Below are positions 1,235 to 29,435 of a DNA stretch of 30,944 bases, one piece after another. The DNA is taken from positions 1 through 30,944 of IMG/VR virus record IMGVR_UViG_3300027796_000032; one strand, given 5' to 3'. The position numbers and the translations under genes were made by a program. A model generated the notes under the pieces. The model worked only from the letters and a program-made list of their open reading frames with translations, was not told the DNA's origin and searched no databases. Positions within the stretch are counted from its first letter, which is position 1. Each line of letters starts with the position of its first letter. This stretch comes from a virus.

Positions 1235-2830
1235 TTAAAACTGCCGGTCTATTCTCGTTCCGTCACGGAAAGCAAAGGTGAATGTATTTTTGTCCTTCAC
1301 AATCACCGTTTCCACAATGCCGTTAAATAAATCAATATCAAATTCAGGAATGATTTTACCCGACTTTTTCATCTGCCGGATGAAATCCTGTCGGTATACC
1401 AGCCGTGTATCCCACAGTAGCTTTTCGTCCTTCAGCCTCTGAATTTCGGTTTCAAGGCGGTTATGCTCTTTGGCAAGCGTGGCATAATCCCTATCGTATT
1501 TTTTCTGATTCATAACGCTGTGGGCGTTGGTTTCAATCAGCTTTTTTATTTTTTGTTTCATTACATCAAACTGTTCTTCCGTTTTTGCCAGTGCCGCCTC
1601 AATTTCATCAGATTTTGTACCACCTGCAAGGGACTGCTCCAACACGGAAATGAAGTTCCCCTTATTCTCCACCATGCCGTTGTAAACCTCAACGAATGCC
1701 TGTTTAACGGCTTCTTCATTGACATACGGCAAGCTACAGGATTTTTTTCCCTTCTTCCTATATTTCCCGTTGCACTGCCAGATCACCTTGCGGTACTTGC
1801 TGGTGGAATGCCAGACTTTTGGACCGTAAATGCCTCCACACTCTCCGCAGATAATTTTACCTGACAGCTCCCTACTGCCGTTGGAAACGCCCCCACTCAT
1901 CTCCCTGCGCTTGAATTCGCCCTGTGCCATCTGAAATATATCTTTTGAGATAATTGCTGGATGGGAGTTTTCTACGAAATACTGCGCTACCGTGCCGTTA
2001 TTGACCGCTTTTTTCTTGGTTAAAAAATCAACCGTATACGATTTCTGCAGGAGCGCGGCTCCAAAATATTTTTCATTTTGGAGGATACTAGTAACGGTAT
2101 TGGCATGCCAGTTTTCCGCACCGCACGGTGTTTCGATGCCCTCCCGCGTCAGCGTAGCGGCAATGCCTTTCAAGCTCTGCCCCTCCAGAAAGCACTTATA
2201 TATCCTGCGCACCGTTTCCGCTTCCTGCGGCACAATCTCCGGTGTGCCGTCCTTCCCTTTCTTATACCCCAGAAAATGCTCATAAGGTATAATCAGCTTG
2301 CCATCGGCAAACCGCTTCCGGATACCCCAAGTAACGTTTTCTGAAATATTACGGCTTTCATCCTGCGCCAATGACGATAATATAGTCAGCAGAACCTCCC
2401 CTTTACTGTCCAGCGTCCGGATATTTTCCTTCTCGAACAGCACTTCAATACCGCATTCTTTCAGCTTCCGCACAGTTTCCAACGTATCTACCGTGTTCCT
2501 AGCAAAGCGAGAAACACTTTTAACCAGTATTAAATCAATCCTGCCGCCGATTGCGTCCTCAACCATGCGGTTGAACCCTTCCCTTCCTTTGGTGGAAGTC
2601 CCTGTTCTGTCCTGATCGGCATAAACATTCACATACTCCCATTGTGGGTTATTTTGAATATGATTTGTATAATAGTCCACCTGCGCCTCATATGAATTGG
2701 CCTGTTCCTCCGTATCGGTAGAAACTCTGGCATACGCCGCGACCCGTATTTTCCTAAGTTTTGGGGCGGATGTGACCTGGGTTATGAATTGTTCTCTTGC
2801 CGGAATAAATGTGACTTTTCTTTCTGACAT
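1235..2830 (-). CDS. Large serine recombinase with coiled coil (second of pair)
   Basis: A 531-residue large serine recombinase that would cut and rejoin attachment sites through a Ser-DNA link. The catalytic domain opens with AAYARVS (Ser37) and includes KSVSRFARN. The recombinase domain follows (about 170-290), then a zinc ribbon CGECG...C...C (about 335-375), a long charged coiled coil (about 410-480) and a C-terminal beta-type tail. The ATG at 2830 is chosen because GGAGGAG lies 8 nt upstream; an in-frame ATG at 2851 lacks such a site. The gene starts 49 bp inside the preceding recombinase gene, so the two are translationally linked. In large serine integrases the coiled coil governs integration versus excision, and only this member of the pair has it. 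Confidence 0.93.
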   Translation of the reverse strand: MSERKVTFIPAREQFITQVTSAPKLRKIRVAAYARVSTDTEEQANSYEAQVDYYTNHIQNNPQWEYVNVYADQDRTGTSTKGREGFNRMVEDAIGGRIDLILVKSVSRFARNTVDTLETVRKLKECGIEVLFEKENIRTLDSKGEVLLTILSSLAQDESRNISENVTWGIRKRFADGKLIIPYEHFLGYKKGKDGTPEIVPQEAETVRRIYKCFLEGQSLKGIAATLTREGIETPCGAENWHANTVTSILQNEKYFGAALLQKSYTVDFLTKKKAVNNGTVAQYFVENSHPAIISKDIFQMAQGEFKRREMSGGVSNGSRELSGKIICGECGGIYGPKVWHSTSKYRKVIWQCNGKYRKKGKKSCSLPYVNEEAVKQAFVEVYNGMVENKGNFISVLEQSLAGGTKSDEIEAALAKTEEQFDVMKQKIKKLIETNAHSVMNQKKYDRDYATLAKEHNRLETEIQRLKDEKLLWDTRLVYRQDFIRQMKKSGKIIPEFDIDLFNGIVETVIVKDKNTFTFAFRDGTRIDRQF

Positions 2831-4104
2831 GCTTTCATCTCCTCCGTCCATTTCCGTGATTTATCCTGCCATGATTTTTCTGTCCTTTTTCCATCCTTAC
2901 AAACAAAAACCACCTTGTTCCACTCAGAAACCTCTATCCTTTGTATTTTCTGTTTGAAAACCTTCTCGTCAAATTCATTGAGTCCCAAAACTTCCGCGGT
3001 GATTTCCATCAGTGTATCCTCGGGTATCTGCTTGGTATGGCAAGCAGCCTTTCCTTTTTCCAGAAAAGTGGCACAATTCCAGAAAACGCGTCTGTGCTTG
3101 TTACTGCAGTTGCTGACCTTGCGGGTATAATTTTTGCCGCAGTTCCGACAAAGGATTATGCCGGTAAAGGGATATTTGAATTTGGGCTGAACGCTCGCGT
3201 TCTCACGAGCGCGTTTTTTCAATTCCGCCTGCACGGCGAAGAAGGTTTCCTTTAAAATAATGGGTTGGTGGTTATCCTCCACAAAATACTGATCCCGCTC
3301 GCCCCTGTTTATGACCCTTCTTTTTGTAATATGGTCTGTGCGGAAGCTTTTCTGCAATAACAAATCCCCACAGTATTTTTCATTAATTATCAGGTGTTTC
3401 AGCCCTTTTACGTTCCACAGCCCGCCTTTGGGGGACGGAATCTCCTTTTCATTCAGCATATCGCAGATACGTTTCAATCCCAATCCTGACAAATAGGAGG
3501 AAAAAATCAAACGGACGACTTCGGCTTCCTCCTGTATAATCCGAAAGCCTCCGTCATCCGTTCGCCTGTACCCGTAGAGCCGTTTCAGGCTCATGGGCAA
3601 AATCCCCTGTTCAAATTGTTTTTTCAGCCTCCATTTACAATCTTCTGAAACGTTGTAGCTCTGCTCCTGCGCGAAGGCGGACAGCACCGTCAGCATCAGC
3701 TCCCCGTTTTCTGACAGGCTGTTTATGTTCTCCTCCTCAAAAAACACCGCCACACCCAACTCTTTCAGTTCCCGTACGCAGGTGAGGGTTGTAACCGTAT
3801 TTCGGGAAAATCTTGAAATTGCCTTGGTAATAATCATGTCGACATTGCCGTTTCGGCATTCCGCAAGCATTTTCTGAAACTCCGGTCGATCCTGCTTTGT
3901 GCCGGTGGTCGGCTCGTCGGCAAACACGCCGGCAAATTCCCATAATGGGTTTTTCTGAATCAACTCGCTGTAATAACTGACCTGCGCCGACAGGGAATGC
4001 AATGCCGCGTCTTTTTCTGCCGACACCCTTGCATAGGCACATACCCTCTTCCTGCGGCAGGCTTCGGCGGCAAAGGGTTCAATTTTGGTTATTATTTTCT
4101 GCAT
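2782..4104 (-). CDS. Large serine recombinase lacking the coiled coil (first of pair)
   Basis: A 440-residue serine recombinase. The catalytic Ser28 lies in CAYARVS and further resolvase-domain residues are in KAISRFSRN. A recombinase domain (about 160-280) and a zinc ribbon CRNCG...C...C (about 325-365) follow. Compared with its neighbour it lacks about 90 residues of coiled coil: soon after the zinc ribbon it goes straight into a short segment (IQRIEVSEWNKVVFVCKDGK) that matches the other protein's extreme C-terminal part. GGGAGG precedes the ATG at good spacing. It follows an unknown small gene by 4 bp and overlaps the next recombinase. It may act with its partner as a heteromeric integrase, or be a truncated helper; which one is not shown by sequence alone. 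Confidence 0.92.
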   Translation of the reverse strand: MQKIITKIEPFAAEACRRKRVCAYARVSAEKDAALHSLSAQVSYYSELIQKNPLWEFAGVFADEPTTGTKQDRPEFQKMLAECRNGNVDMIITKAISRFSRNTVTTLTCVRELKELGVAVFFEEENINSLSENGELMLTVLSAFAQEQSYNVSEDCKWRLKKQFEQGILPMSLKRLYGYRRTDDGGFRIIQEEAEVVRLIFSSYLSGLGLKRICDMLNEKEIPSPKGGLWNVKGLKHLIINEKYCGDLLLQKSFRTDHITKRRVINRGERDQYFVEDNHQPIILKETFFAVQAELKKRARENASVQPKFKYPFTGIILCRNCGKNYTRKVSNCSNKHRRVFWNCATFLEKGKAACHTKQIPEDTLMEITAEVLGLNEFDEKVFKQKIQRIEVSEWNKVVFVCKDGKRTEKSWQDKSRKWTEEMKACQKEKSHLFRQENNS

Positions 4105-16028: not shown

Positions 16029-16199
16029 TCAGCCATTTGTAATGGAATTGATTTTATCGATTTCTTCTTCAAGAAAGAGCTCTAAACTAGCCTTGAAAAA
16101 CAGCTTTTCTGCAATCGGAAGGTTAATAATATATGCCGGTTTGAATCCCCGCTGGAGATAATGATGCAGCATATACATCTCGCCGTCCGATTTTATGAC
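16029..16199 (-). CDS. Frameshift extension of the tail assembly chaperone (GT-like)
   Basis: An open frame of 56 codons without its own start or ribosome site fills the gap between the chaperone stop and the tape measure. Read in the -1 frame after the A-AAA-AAG site it gives VIKSDGEMYMLHHYL and continues to EEEIDKINSITNG. The fused product would be 130 + 56 = 186 residues. A short product plus a longer -1 product, encoded just before the tape measure gene, is the classic G/GT arrangement of tailed phages. The extension's coding quality and exact fit argue that it is real. Confidence 0.82.
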   Translation of the reverse strand, partial: VIKSDGEMYMLHHYLQRGFKPAYIINLPIAEKLFFKASLELFLEEEIDKINSITNG

Positions 16200-16588
16200 T
16201 TTTTTAAGTCATCTACCATTTTGACGCCATCTACATACCCTGATAATTTCAGGCATTCCATGGCAATCTGCGGGATTTCGCCTACGTCAAAGATTTTCTC
16301 GACGATCTCCATCGGTTCCACGCAGGAAAAGGCCTCATGAAGTTCCTTGGATTTGAGATCCGGCTCAACCATACACTGATAAACCAGATACGCGTCGCCG
16401 CCCTCCATTTCCTGTGACTCTTTTGCGAGAGCGGAATCGGGGCCTTCGATGGTAATGGTACCGTCAAGGGATTTTACATATAAGGTACCGGTCTTTTTAA
16501 TTTTTTTGCTCTCCAGCATCTGCTCCTTGCGACGAAGCAGCTCCGCCAGGGTTATTTTTTTTAATTGATTTTTAGACACTGTTATCAA
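16193..16588 (-). CDS. Tail assembly chaperone (XkdN-like, short product)
   Basis: A 131-residue acidic protein with ITLAELLRRKEQMLESKKIKKTG near its start and a helical remainder (EIPQIAMECLKLSGYVDG). It matches XkdN-type tail assembly chaperones, which coat the tape measure protein before the tube polymerises. Its last codons run through the slippery A-AAA-AAG before Ser and stop, so a fraction of ribosomes should make the longer form. It lies between tube and tape measure genes. Confidence 0.85.
   Translation of the reverse strand: MITVSKNQLKKITLAELLRRKEQMLESKKIKKTGTLYVKSLDGTITIEGPDSALAKESQEMEGGDAYLVYQCMVEPDLKSKELHEAFSCVEPMEIVEKIFDVGEIPQIAMECLKLSGYVDGVKMVDDLKKS
16199..16205 (-). promoter_or_regulatory. 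-1 programmed frameshift site A-AAA-AAG
   Basis: The heptamer AAAAAAG is in the correct phase (TTA AAA AAG in the chaperone frame), two codons before the zero-frame stop. It is the same heptamer used by E. coli dnaX. No convincing pseudoknot within 5-9 nt is seen by eye; a GAGAT/ATCTC stem starts about 17 nt downstream. Confidence 0.82.
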
Positions 16589-16616: not shown

Positions 16617-17057
16617 TTATCTTGGGGTAACTAAATCGGGGAAGGAGTAATCCGTAAACCCGCCGGAAAATTCTTCTTCCCCCAGTTTTTTCGATTCAAA
16701 TTTCATTAAAGATATATCCGAAAACCAACAGTTCGAGAGTACCACCCGCTCGCTGCCGTAGGCGTCCGGGTCTGAAATCTTGCCGATCAGCTGGCTGCGC
16801 GGGTCTATGCCGCTTTTGATTGCGTTTGCGATCTTAATCTGTCCCCTTGAAAACACCTTGTTTACCTTAAAGCTGAATTCACCCGCGAGGCCGGTCATTT
16901 TGCTGTCCTCCATCAGGTCTCCCGCAAAATTAACAGTTTCTCGGTTTATCTTCAGTTTTGCTTCAAAGGATGAAACCTCAAACACGGGTTCCGAATCCCA
17001 GTATAACATGCCGTAGGTGCCTGACATCACCCTCGGCGCGGTCGGTTTTGTCGCCAT
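16617..17057 (-). CDS. Tail tube protein (XkdM/DUF2001-like)
   Basis: A 146-residue protein with MSGTYGMLYWDSEPVFEVSSFEAKLKINRE, LAGEFSFKVNKVFSRGQIK and DISLMKFESKKLGEEEFSGGFTDY. This is the XkdM/DUF2001 family, the inner tube of contractile tails. It directly follows the sheath gene and precedes the chaperone, as in PBSX. Length is as expected. Confidence 0.92.
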   Translation of the reverse strand: MATKPTAPRVMSGTYGMLYWDSEPVFEVSSFEAKLKINRETVNFAGDLMEDSKMTGLAGEFSFKVNKVFSRGQIKIANAIKSGIDPRSQLIGKISDPDAYGSERVVLSNCWFSDISLMKFESKKLGEEEFSGGFTDYSFPDLVTPR

Positions 17058-17073
17058 CTGCCATCACCTCTTT

Positions 17074-18123
17074 TCATGCGATTGCAACATTAAATTGTAT
17101 ATCCTCGATGCTGTCCTGCAGTTTTACATCAGCGGAAACGAAAATATATGTACCCGTATCCGCCTGCTTGACCTGCTCATCCGACCAGTCGGATATATCT
17201 TCTTTCTGTATCAGATATTCACGCTGGGCGGTCAGGTCAATCGCGGCAAGATTATCATATTTATCATATAACACGCCCTGCTGCTCCAGCAGCTGAAAAT
17301 ACTGATTCACAGCGGCAATAAAAAGCACCTTATTATCGTAATCGTTATTCTCACCAATGTAATTATCCTCAAATGTCGTCCGTATATCATCCCTGATGAT
17401 ATCGATTCCTTCGACAATTTTGACCTTTTTGAACTCTTCTGTTTTTCCGTCTGACAGCGTGACCAGCGAGTTTACGCCGCGTGCGATTTTGATTTTGCTG
17501 CCGTCGTTTATAAGGATCAGCTTACCCGCGTCAATATCAGTGTCGGGCGTAACGCTTTCCGTAATGCTTTCCACCTCGGCGAGCGGCTCATATGTCGCAC
17601 TCTGCGTCAGCGGCAGGCCGGCAAGCAGGCCGGCGACCCTCGCGCAGTATTCAGCTGTGGTATATGTTTTGGTACCAACCTTGATATTTTCTGTTGAAAA
17701 ATTAATAATCCCCTCATGATTGGCGGCGGCACCGGGCAGCACGGCTTTATACGTCTTTTTATCCGCCCGCTGGGTTTTAACCCAATCCGCGATTGTTGTA
17801 ACGTCTTCTGTGGCAATCGACGGAATGGTGAGATAATTCCACGCTTTGTTCCGCAGCCTCGCAAGCGCGGCGTCATAGGTATCGGTTGTACCGATCCTCT
17901 CCACGATCACCTTAGACGGCCCGCCCAAAAAGATTTTAGCCAAATAATCCCTATTTGTGGTTGTATAATGGCTCTGCACGATATCGCTCTCTTTGACATA
18001 AATTTTTGTATCAAACGTACTTGTGTTATCCTTTAAAATAACAGCGACCACGCCGCTTCCGCTTCGTTTAACCGCCGTATCCGCCTTTGCCTTAAATTCA
18101 ATGAGTATCTGCGGCAGACCCAT
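17074..18123 (-). CDS. Contractile tail sheath protein (XkdK-like)
   Basis: A 349-residue sheath protein. The N-terminal part (LPQILIEFKAKADTAVKRSGSGVVAVILKD), AALARLRNKAWNYLTIPSI and the C-terminal ISDWSDEQVKQADTGTYIFVSADVKLQDSIEDIQFNV are typical of XkdK/YqbK-type sheaths, whose C-terminal arms interlock subunits. Its presence defines the phage as a myovirus. The start overlaps the end of the tail terminator gene by 26 bp, with GGAGGTG upstream. Length is near the ~350-450 residue range of short sheaths. Confidence 0.94.
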   Translation of the reverse strand: MGLPQILIEFKAKADTAVKRSGSGVVAVILKDNTSTFDTKIYVKESDIVQSHYTTTNRDYLAKIFLGGPSKVIVERIGTTDTYDAALARLRNKAWNYLTIPSIATEDVTTIADWVKTQRADKKTYKAVLPGAAANHEGIINFSTENIKVGTKTYTTAEYCARVAGLLAGLPLTQSATYEPLAEVESITESVTPDTDIDAGKLILINDGSKIKIARGVNSLVTLSDGKTEEFKKVKIVEGIDIIRDDIRTTFEDNYIGENNDYDNKVLFIAAVNQYFQLLEQQGVLYDKYDNLAAIDLTAQREYLIQKEDISDWSDEQVKQADTGTYIFVSADVKLQDSIEDIQFNVAIA

Positions 18124-25912: not shown

Positions 25913-27682
25913 TCATTTTTTGTTAATTTGTGTATAATACCGTACGATTCCAGCCATGATAAACTCAGCACACTGCCTTACAACGCCGTTGCCGCAGAGC
26001 TTGTAGACCGCCGAATCGGAGTTAGGATTTTTCAGCCACTTGATGATCTGGTTTCTGCTTTTGGGCTTTGACGACGTTCCCATAATCCGGCGGTGGGTTT
26101 CAAATACCTCCGTCCAGAACGCGATATCCACCTCTGTCGGATTTTCCGTTTCAAGATGGCTGCACCAGCCGTCCGGCAGACCCATGAGCCTCAGGCATTC
26201 CATTATTGAAAGTCGCCTCACGATATATTCCGTTTCAGCAGTTTCGCCGTTAGGCACGTAAGCCACACTATGCCTGTCAGCAGTGTTTAGTGTAAATGAT
26301 ACATCCTTATTCACCCCACTGCCCTGCGGTCCGTTTTTATGTTTCCTTCCTATCATGGAGCCCTGCAGGGCATACGTTTCCACAACAGCAACGCCTCCCT
26401 GATTGCATGCCGGGTCGCCTCCGCTTGTATCAAGCGTTCTCGCCGTTTCCGCCTCATAAATTCCGCTGTATGCATTATTTGAAAGCATTGCATTACTGTT
26501 TTGCGAACAGATACCAAAGGCTTTTTTTTCCTCACAGATGCGCTGCATGCCCTTATAATCGCTGCCCATCAGAGTCTGCGCGATATCCTCCGTTACCGGC
26601 AGGGACAGCTGTCTTTCGCTCATAACCATCGGGACGCTGCATCCGCCCGTACCCATTCTTGATGTTAATGTCTGAGACATGCCGTCAGATGACAGCTTTA
26701 CTCTGCTGTCAGCCGGATAATTTTCAACCGCGATTGCTCCGGTAGCCGCACTTTTTTTAACAGGGATCACAACTGCCGCGAGATTATCCCCCATCTGCGC
26801 CCTGAGCGTACAGGTATGCTCTTTGGAGCAGTGGCCTCCGAGGCGACTTGCAGCCCCGGGTTCGAAGCAATAGGTATCCAGGCTGCCGTCGCCCGACTGG
26901 TTTCGAAGCGCTGCGTCAAGCGGTTTCGGAAGCGTTTTCCCACGCAAAGCGGCGCGGCGGAGGATTCCCTCGCAGGCCTTTTGGGACAGGTTGTATTTCG
27001 GATCGGGGTTATCCTCCAGAATATCTCTCAGGAAAGTCTGTACCGGCGTAAATTCCGCTGTCGCAATCCCGTAAAACTGCAGGCCGTCAAAACCGTTGAG
27101 GGCTCTTTCGATTGCTTTTGCTCTCGGCACTGTTTGTTTCAGCGATGACGCTGTAACAAGCCTTTTTTGAACGCCGACCATAAACACCCTGTTTCTCCGC
27201 TGCGGAACGCCCATATACTGCGCCTGCAATATATTCATGTCAACTGCAAACCCCAAACGGCTGAATTCATGCAGCACCCGTTTTACATCTTCTCCCTTTT
27301 TGCTGGACAAAAGACCTTTCACATTTTCTGCTATTATGAATTTTGGATTTTCGCCGCCGGTTGCCGCCAGCATCTCTTCAATAATACGGATCGCCTCAAA
27401 AAACAGGCGCGACCTGCTGCCGTCAAGTCCGGAACGCTTCCCAGCGCACGATAAATCTTGACAGCAAAAGCCAAATGTTACCAAATCTACAGGCTGTATT
27501 TCCCCGCCGTTTATTTTGCAGATGTCACCGAGATGCTTCATTTCCGGCAGCCTTTTTGTGGTTACCCTTATGGGGAACGGCTCAATTTCGCTCGCCCAGA
27601 CCGGTGTAATGCCGTTCAGCTTTCCAGCAAGCGGAAAAGTGCCTGAGCCATCAAACAAACTGCCCATCGTTATATCAGGCAT
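25913..27682 (-). CDS. DNA C5-cytosine methyltransferase
   Basis: A 589-residue enzyme that moves a methyl group from S-adenosylmethionine to C5 of cytosine. Motif I is SLFDGSGTF (residues 8-16), motif IV is GFCCQDLS with catalytic Cys74, ENV is at 119-121, QRRNR at 161-165, and a motif X-like KLCGNGVVRQC lies near the C-terminus. In motif IV the usual Pro before the catalytic Cys is itself a Cys. The region between motifs VIII and IX is long, the target-recognition part. The ATG at 27682 has a good ribosome site and overlaps the preceding methyltransferase by 8 bp. No restriction endonuclease is nearby, so it is probably an orphan protecting phage DNA or methylating the host. Confidence 0.93.
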   Translation of the reverse strand: MPDITMGSLFDGSGTFPLAGKLNGITPVWASEIEPFPIRVTTKRLPEMKHLGDICKINGGEIQPVDLVTFGFCCQDLSCAGKRSGLDGSRSRLFFEAIRIIEEMLAATGGENPKFIIAENVKGLLSSKKGEDVKRVLHEFSRLGFAVDMNILQAQYMGVPQRRNRVFMVGVQKRLVTASSLKQTVPRAKAIERALNGFDGLQFYGIATAEFTPVQTFLRDILEDNPDPKYNLSQKACEGILRRAALRGKTLPKPLDAALRNQSGDGSLDTYCFEPGAASRLGGHCSKEHTCTLRAQMGDNLAAVVIPVKKSAATGAIAVENYPADSRVKLSSDGMSQTLTSRMGTGGCSVPMVMSERQLSLPVTEDIAQTLMGSDYKGMQRICEEKKAFGICSQNSNAMLSNNAYSGIYEAETARTLDTSGGDPACNQGGVAVVETYALQGSMIGRKHKNGPQGSGVNKDVSFTLNTADRHSVAYVPNGETAETEYIVRRLSIMECLRLMGLPDGWCSHLETENPTEVDIAFWTEVFETHRRIMGTSSKPKSRNQIIKWLKNPNSDSAVYKLCGNGVVRQCAEFIMAGIVRYYTQINKK

Positions 27683-28964
27683 CCTTATCACCCTTTTCGA
27701 TTTCAGCATACGCTGTTTTTACGCCGTCCCGAATCAGGAAAACATTATCGCTGCCGCCCATTTGATTGATGAACCGTTCCACTATCACATCCGCGTACCG
27801 TTCGTCCAATTCAATCATACAGCATATTCTATCTGTCTGTTCACAGGCAATCAGAGTGCTGCCCGATCCGCCGAACGGATCCAGAACAACGGAATTCACC
27901 ATGCTGGAATTCATAATGGGGTACGCAATCAGCTGCAGCGGTTTCATGGTTGGATGGACATCGTTTTTCTTCGGGCGGTCATAATTCCAGACCGTCGACT
28001 GTTTCCTGTCCGAATACCATTTGTGGCTGCCGCCCTGCTTCCAGCCGTACAGAACCGGTTCATGCTGGTAATGGTAGTCACACTTGCCCATGGCAAAGCT
28101 GTTTTTCACCCACAAGCAGGTTTCATGGCAGAAAAAACCCGCCTCTGTAAAGGCGGTTCTGAAATTTACCGTTTCCTTATCCGCGTGAAATACATAAATG
28201 CAGGCGCCGTCCGCCATAACTTCGTATGTGTTTTTGTAAAAGGCGAGCAGGAACTTTTTAAATTCCGCGCCCGCCATATTATCGTTCTGAATTTTTCCGG
28301 CTGTTCCTTCGTAAGCCACGTTATACGGCGGGTCGGTTATAACAAGGTTCGCTTGTCTGCCCTCCATCAGAACTGTATAACTCTCCGGTTTCGTGCTGTC
28401 ACCGCACAGTAACCTGTGCCTGCCGAGGAGCCAGATATCTCCCTGTCTGGATACAGGATTTTCAGGCGGCGGAATCTCACAATCGTCCTCTTTTACGTTC
28501 TCGTTTGTTATATTGGACATCATTTCATCCAGATCCTGCACGGTAAAACCGGTCAGCTCGAAGTCGATATCACCGCTTGCCTTGATTTCCGCTAAAATAT
28601 CCGCTGCCATATCTTTGTCCAGCTCGCTGAGCTCGGACAATCGGTTGTCCGCCACCAGATCCGCCCATTCCGCCGCTTCGCTCTCATAATCCTGATAATC
28701 CACCGGAGCCTTCTCCGTTTTCATTTCGACTGCCGCTGCCAGCCGCCCGTGCCCTTTGACAATAAAACCGCTTCGTTTGGAAACGGTAATAGGCGCACGC
28801 CATCCCTGGCTCTGTATAATCCTCGCAAGCAGTTTAATCTGCTCCTTACTGTGGGTGTTGGGGTTTCTCGGATTGCCCACAAGCTTTGTGATATCCACAA
28901 TTTCGTCGTGGGCACAGTAGACGGGAATATCCCCCGCCATTGCCTTTGGAAACACTTTCTCCAT
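27675..28964 (-). CDS. ParB-domain DNA methyltransferase (N4-cytosine/N6-adenine)
   Basis: A 429-residue fusion protein. The N-terminal ParB/Srx-like domain (about residues 15-110) has NPRNPNTHS and GHGRLAAA (71-78). The methyltransferase domain has DPPYN (211-215) and the SAM-binding DPFGGSGST (362-370), the beta-type motif order of N6-adenine or N4-cytosine enzymes. This fusion is common in prophages, often beside a C5 methyltransferase as here, with no cognate endonuclease. The likely role is modification of phage DNA against host restriction. AGGAGAG lies upstream of the ATG. Confidence 0.94.
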   Translation of the reverse strand: MEKVFPKAMAGDIPVYCAHDEIVDITKLVGNPRNPNTHSKEQIKLLARIIQSQGWRAPITVSKRSGFIVKGHGRLAAAVEMKTEKAPVDYQDYESEAAEWADLVADNRLSELSELDKDMAADILAEIKASGDIDFELTGFTVQDLDEMMSNITNENVKEDDCEIPPPENPVSRQGDIWLLGRHRLLCGDSTKPESYTVLMEGRQANLVITDPPYNVAYEGTAGKIQNDNMAGAEFKKFLLAFYKNTYEVMADGACIYVFHADKETVNFRTAFTEAGFFCHETCLWVKNSFAMGKCDYHYQHEPVLYGWKQGGSHKWYSDRKQSTVWNYDRPKKNDVHPTMKPLQLIAYPIMNSSMVNSVVLDPFGGSGSTLIACEQTDRICCMIELDERYADVIVERFINQMGGSDNVFLIRDGVKTAYAEIEKGDKDA

Positions 28965-29075: not shown

Positions 29076-29435
29076 TCATTTGGTTTTATTATACCGATAC
29101 TTTGGTATACTGTCCTGCATTCCGGTCTTGGTGTTATGACATTTCTTACACAATGGCTGCCAATTCCTTTGATCCCACAGCAGCTTTGGGTCGCCGCGGT
29201 GCGGAACAATATGATCAACAGCAGTCGCTTCCACCAGCCTACCCTGCCTGTTACACTCAATACAGAGCGGATGCGACTGCAGATACAACTTGCTCAGCCT
29301 GCGCCATCTGCAGTCATATCCGCGATCATGCGCAGAAGGGCGGTTATGTAATTTATTATGTTTTTCGCAGTAGGTATCGAGCGTCAGCTCCGGGCATCCC
29401 GGATGCCTGCACGGTTTTTTTGGTTTTGTCGGCAT
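29076..29435 (-). CDS. HNH endonuclease
   Basis: A 119-residue HNH nuclease. The N-terminus has a Cys/His cluster (CRHPGCPEL ... YCEKH). The core carries zinc pairs Cys58/Cys61 and Cys96/Cys99 and the catalytic series His75 (DHIVPHRG), Asn91 and His100. Phage HNH proteins of this type work with the terminase in cos cleavage and packaging and usually sit beside the small terminase; here two methyltransferases and three small genes intervene. GGAGGAG precedes the ATG. Confidence 0.93.
   Translation of the reverse strand: MPTKPKKPCRHPGCPELTLDTYCEKHNKLHNRPSAHDRGYDCRWRRLSKLYLQSHPLCIECNRQGRLVEATAVDHIVPHRGDPKLLWDQRNWQPLCKKCHNTKTGMQDSIPKYRYNKTK

Follow-up and report, generated by a model that had tools for sequence, protein, structure and literature searches.

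The tail assembly chaperone gene of this phage very probably (at about 94%, as judged by sequence comparison) uses programmed -1 ribosomal frameshifting in the manner of lambda G/GT. Ribosomes on the XkdN-like chaperone mRNA would arrive at the slippery heptamer A_AAA_AAG, where an RNA stem downstream would slow them and both tRNA-Lys, in the P and A sites, would shift back by one base to pair with AAA AAA. A minority of ribosomes would then go on in the -1 frame and add a 56-residue helical domain, yielding a protein of 183 aa, and most would terminate two codons past the heptamer, yielding one of 128 aa. By analogy to lambda gpG, the short form would presumably coat the tape measure protein; the long form is expected to recruit tail tube subunits, as does lambda gpGT. 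We infer the occurrence of the shift as well as its efficiency, the latter by comparison with lambda.

The chaperone gene and its slippery site

The window, i.e. the whole stretch of DNA analysed, is the complete 30,944-base IMG/VR record IMGVR_UViG_3300027796_000032. It represents a contractile-tail phage with genes on the minus strand, among them terminase, portal, ClpP-like protease, major head protein, connector and terminator as well as the tail genes for sheath, tube, chaperone, tape measure and Baseplate_J. The presence of a contractile tail sheath gene identifies the phage as a myophage. The chaperone gene sits between the tail tube and tape measure genes, and the features of this region are as follows.

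17074..18123, minus strand: contractile tail sheath gene (PF04984/PF17482; phrog_1480, E=9.6e-131)
16617..17057, minus strand: tail tube protein gene, upstream of the chaperone (PF09393, E=5.4e-45)
16193..16579, minus strand: tail assembly chaperone, G-like 0-frame product of 128 aa, GTG start (PF08890, phrog_4976)
16199..16205, minus strand: slippery heptamer A_AAA_AAG, phased as X_XXY_YYZ relative to the 0 frame
16193..16195, minus strand: 0-frame stop TAA; the heptamer's first base lies 10 nt ahead of it
16113..16192, minus strand: predicted stimulatory RNA structure with outer and inner stem that starts 6 nt past the heptamer
16029..16205, minus strand: -1 reading frame, T-like domain of KK plus 56 codons, ending at TGA 16031-16029; predicted fusion of 183 aa
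13681..16011, minus strand: tape measure protein gene, downstream of the chaperone (phrog_1535 tail length tape measure, E=4e-38)

Elsewhere in the window, two adjacent and overlapping large serine recombinase genes (1235-2851 and 2782-4104, minus strand) each encode Resolvase, Recombinase and Zn-ribbon domains; two integrase-like genes within one phage are unusual. Overlapping genes for a C5-cytosine and an N6/N4 DNA methyltransferase (25913-27709 and 27675-28964, minus strand) lie upstream of the terminase genes, with an HNH gene farther out (29076-29435).

The chaperone matched PF08890, the XkdN-like family Phage_TAC_5, with E=1.4e-9 and 38.4 bits, above the curated cut-off of 27, and the tail assembly chaperone family phrog_4976 with E=1.5e-41. 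The only plausible PDB match was 3klu, the structure of YqbN (E=0.0015). In the listed open reading frame (16193-16588), the start codon TTG 16588 abuts its own AGGAA Shine-Dalgarno sequence. The GTG at 16579 follows an AGGAA at the normal spacing of approximately 10 nt and agrees with the N-termini of relatives. Spacing and N-termini thus favour GTG 16579 as the likelier start, and the products of 131 and 186 residues predicted in an earlier note on this DNA become 128 and 183 aa.

At the end of the chaperone gene (5'-GAC TTA AAA AAG TCA TAA-3'), a single sense codon, TCA, separates the heptamer from the stop. The earlier note had placed the heptamer here in correct phase without naming a strand; it was located at 16205-16199 on the minus strand. 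After a slip the -1 frame would read AAA AAA GTC ATA AAA and onward, and counted from the heptamer it stays open for the 56 codons given earlier, up to TGA 16031-16029. The distance from this stop to the tape measure start, TTG 16011, amounts to 17 nt and not to the 18 bp first reported. In-phase A_AAA_AAN is not rare in the window, occurring 16 times among 9,429 codons and twice in the chaperone gene, so that the heptamer alone is weak evidence. The second occurrence in this gene, an in-phase A_AAA_AAA at 16562 (minus strand) near the chaperone start, is not followed by a long -1 frame.

Conservation of the heptamer and of the -1 domain

The search for relatives covered viral contigs, genome contigs and phage records and provided 59 distinct sequences including the window. 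This sample is Bacillota-heavy with one Fusobacterium phage, and many of its members come from metagenomes and cannot be counted as wholly independent. A second sample was drawn independently as PF08890 matches from approximately 400 Bacillota genomes and comprised 33 loci, 30 of them new. The earlier note had proposed to align relatives and look for absence of the heptamer or of the -1 frame. An in-phase A_AAA_AAC or A_AAA_AAG was present at the same position, with the stop 7 or 10 nt further on, in 59/59 relatives, and the heptamer was likewise found in 33/33 family loci sampled across Bacillota; this retention places it far above chance expectation. After omission of three of the 59 relatives whose contigs end early, a -1 open reading frame of at least 47 codons encoding recognisably the same protein was present in 55 of 56 complete relatives. 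The sole exception, L084 (1501-1900), carries the heptamer with a -1 frame that closes after 7 codons, possibly as a result of decay, of a sequencing error or misassembly, or of loss of the long form. L109 has lost the 0-frame stop right after the heptamer but keeps both the heptamer and the -1 domain. Heptamer, phase, -1 frame and gene order persist in relatives spanning 95% to less than 40% identity. Over 89 distinct sequences, the slip codon was AAC in 83 and AAG in six, namely the window, L021, L022, L070, L019 and L109.

Several of these records showed peculiarities of their own. Two divergent PF08890 chaperone genes lie about 13 kb apart on one contig of Alkaliphilus peptidifermentans (L085 and L087), each with the heptamer. 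In the GenBank record of L017 (MW512572.1) the chaperone (499-882) is named 'portal protein' and the upstream gene in tail tube position (1-450) 'terminase', both probably annotation errors. Dulem virus 31 (L019, PP511318.1; 35.8 kb) carries genes for sheath, tube and tape measure, yet its record is filed under Microviridae, a placement that does not fit its tail genes.

The -1 frame bears the marks of a protein-coding sequence. Among 43 close pairs, substitutions at codon positions 1, 2 and 3 numbered 305, 100 and 670, a pattern indicating that the -1 frame evolves as coding sequence. In an alignment of 65 predicted -1 products, KK was invariant and LI nearly invariant at the slip site, followed by a common residue pattern, so the codons that would be read through the shift are conserved. 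An AlphaFold2 model of the domain consists of three helices with a mean pLDDT of 87.9. Searches for a Pfam family of the domain returned no credible match and PHROG matching gave only phrog_10264 (E=0.0014), and a viral fold comparison with the predicted domain gave no significant match.

Could this domain instead be a separate small gene, translated from its own ATG by termination-reinitiation after the chaperone stop? The window has two in-frame ATGs early in the -1 frame, at 16178 and 16172, with weak ribosome sites and 15-21 nt past the stop, and GenBank lists 'hypothetical protein' reading frames at this place in L014, L015, L016 and L018. In 20 of 87 loci, however, the first 24 codons of the homologous frame contain no ATG, GTG or TTG (no ATG in 31 of 87), so expression from a start of its own cannot be the rule. 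The most conserved residues, KK and LI with the heptamer codons, precede any start, and a separate gene would leave heptamer and phase without need for conservation. We therefore regard independent initiation as very unlikely. The former statement that the -1 frame needs no start codon of its own holds for these 20 loci; the window itself does possess candidate ATGs.

RNA structure downstream of the heptamer

Folding energies were compared with synonymous-codon shuffles, which held the -1 protein and the codon set constant. Among 38 representatives, 45-nt windows beginning 0-6 nt past the heptamer had a mean z of approximately -2, and those farther along of approximately 0. A de-clustered set of 18 representatives (less than 70% identical) gave a mean z of -1.9 just after the heptamer, and 29 PF08890 loci reached -1.6, slightly further downstream than in the relatives. 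A sub-clade of 16 sequences showed compensatory paired changes, for example G-C to A-T in columns 11/35 and C-G to T-A in columns 13/33. RNAalifold found no consensus structure for the 38 ungapped representatives because the hairpin register shifts between clades; what is maintained thus seems to be the effect of the structure rather than particular base pairs. Taken from these comparisons, RNA structure 3' of the heptamer is indicated to be selected beyond the protein sequence.

Most relatives have a short local hairpin that the window lacks (60-nt z of -0.7). The window instead is predicted to form a two-helix structure with an outer stem of 7 bp (16192-16186 with 16119-16113) and an inner stem of 10 bp (16176-16167 with 16138-16129), scoring z=-3.87 against dinucleotide shuffles and z=-3.2 (p=0.001) against synonymous-codon shuffles. 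This fold is common to L021 and L022 only, three close sequences in all, so that selection on the longer stem of the window is suggestive and not proven. A stable structure 5-9 nt after the heptamer, selected beyond the coding sequence, is the mark of a frameshift stimulated from downstream; the relatives show it, the window itself through one three-member clade only. The clade of the window appears, from these predictions, to have exchanged its slip codon as well as its structure. An upstream Shine-Dalgarno-like signal, which a dnaX-like stimulator would place about 10 nt ahead of the site, had a weak mean peak at 9-12 nt, not separable from codon bias and accompanied by a similar peak at 29-31 nt; the window's own sequence of this kind is only weak.

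Bacterial RNA polymerases are known to slip on runs of A, and the site is such a run; slippage in transcription might alternatively generate mixed mRNAs, some encoding the fusion. This explanation is still less probable than independent initiation. The run comprises six A in the contexts of relatives and PF08890 loci, which is short for slippage, and transcriptional slippage would need neither an RNA stem at ribosome-pausing distance nor a fixed phase, yet the stem appears selected and the phase is invariant. Coincidence of heptamer and open -1 frame by chance, or a single gene broken in two by a sequencing error, would draw on the frequency of A_AAA_AAN in the window, but is refuted by the survey, where sequences from separate sources all carry the same arrangement, and is the least credible reading of all.

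Relation to known systems

In lambda and the majority of long-tailed phages, -1 frameshifting in the gene at this place is an established fact (PMC5009743). The window shares with lambda G/GT a chaperone gene flanked by those for tail tube and tape measure, a predicted slip near the end of the first reading frame, a start-independent -1 extension, and predicted short and long products (PMC5009743). The parallel to lambda drawn in the earlier note is thus borne out by slip position, gene order and conserved -1 extension, the fixed product ratio being a prediction by analogy. Unlike lambda, the window has a PF08890 chaperone, a contractile tail, the heptamer A_AAA_AAG and a downstream RNA structure that appears selected. 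The E/E+E' system of P2 is likewise a -1 frameshift in the chaperone gene of a myophage, but slips at T_TTT_TTG with no predicted downstream hairpin (PMC3091744), and such structures have been called rare in tail chaperone frameshifts (PMC3091744). An equivalent A_AAA_AAG site was proposed in tail assembly genes of Paenibacillus larvae phages, which unlike the window are siphophages, with A_AAA_AAC possibly used in phage Dragolir (PMC6003738).

XkdN and YqbN, encoded by PBSX and the skin element of B. subtilis, belong to the same Pfam family as the window chaperone, and the B. subtilis genome carries PF08890 matches. The E. coli gene dnaX has the same heptamer as the window, but is a cellular gene; its -1 product is the shorter one. 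Within its class, A_AAA_AAG is the most shift-prone heptamer in E. coli (PMC5009743). No description of frameshifting in XkdN-type genes was found in the open-access papers searched; a 2025 survey of C. difficile phages, which uses the XkdN gene for its tree, yielded no passage on frameshifting to a term search of its text.

While the lambda-type shift is known, its generality in the XkdN family, the apparent selection on downstream structure and the apparent exchange in the clade of the window are modest additions. A wider proposal, which we advance tentatively and at somewhat short of even odds, is that frameshift and selected RNA stem together form a family-wide trait of XkdN (PF08890) chaperones that lineages re-tune. 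The clade of the window would then have exchanged the common A_AAA_AAC and short hairpin for the more slippery A_AAA_AAG and a two-helix stem, the product ratio being held by compensation.

The predicted long chaperone form is usually overlooked in annotation, its -1 domain being listed in relatives as a stray hypothetical reading frame or omitted, as in the GenBank record of L017 (MW512572.1). A family-wide slip site would offer a simple rule for annotating XkdN-type phages and contractile tail relatives. The setting of the product ratio in myophages, a little-tested question, may thereby become approachable, possibly in B. subtilis.
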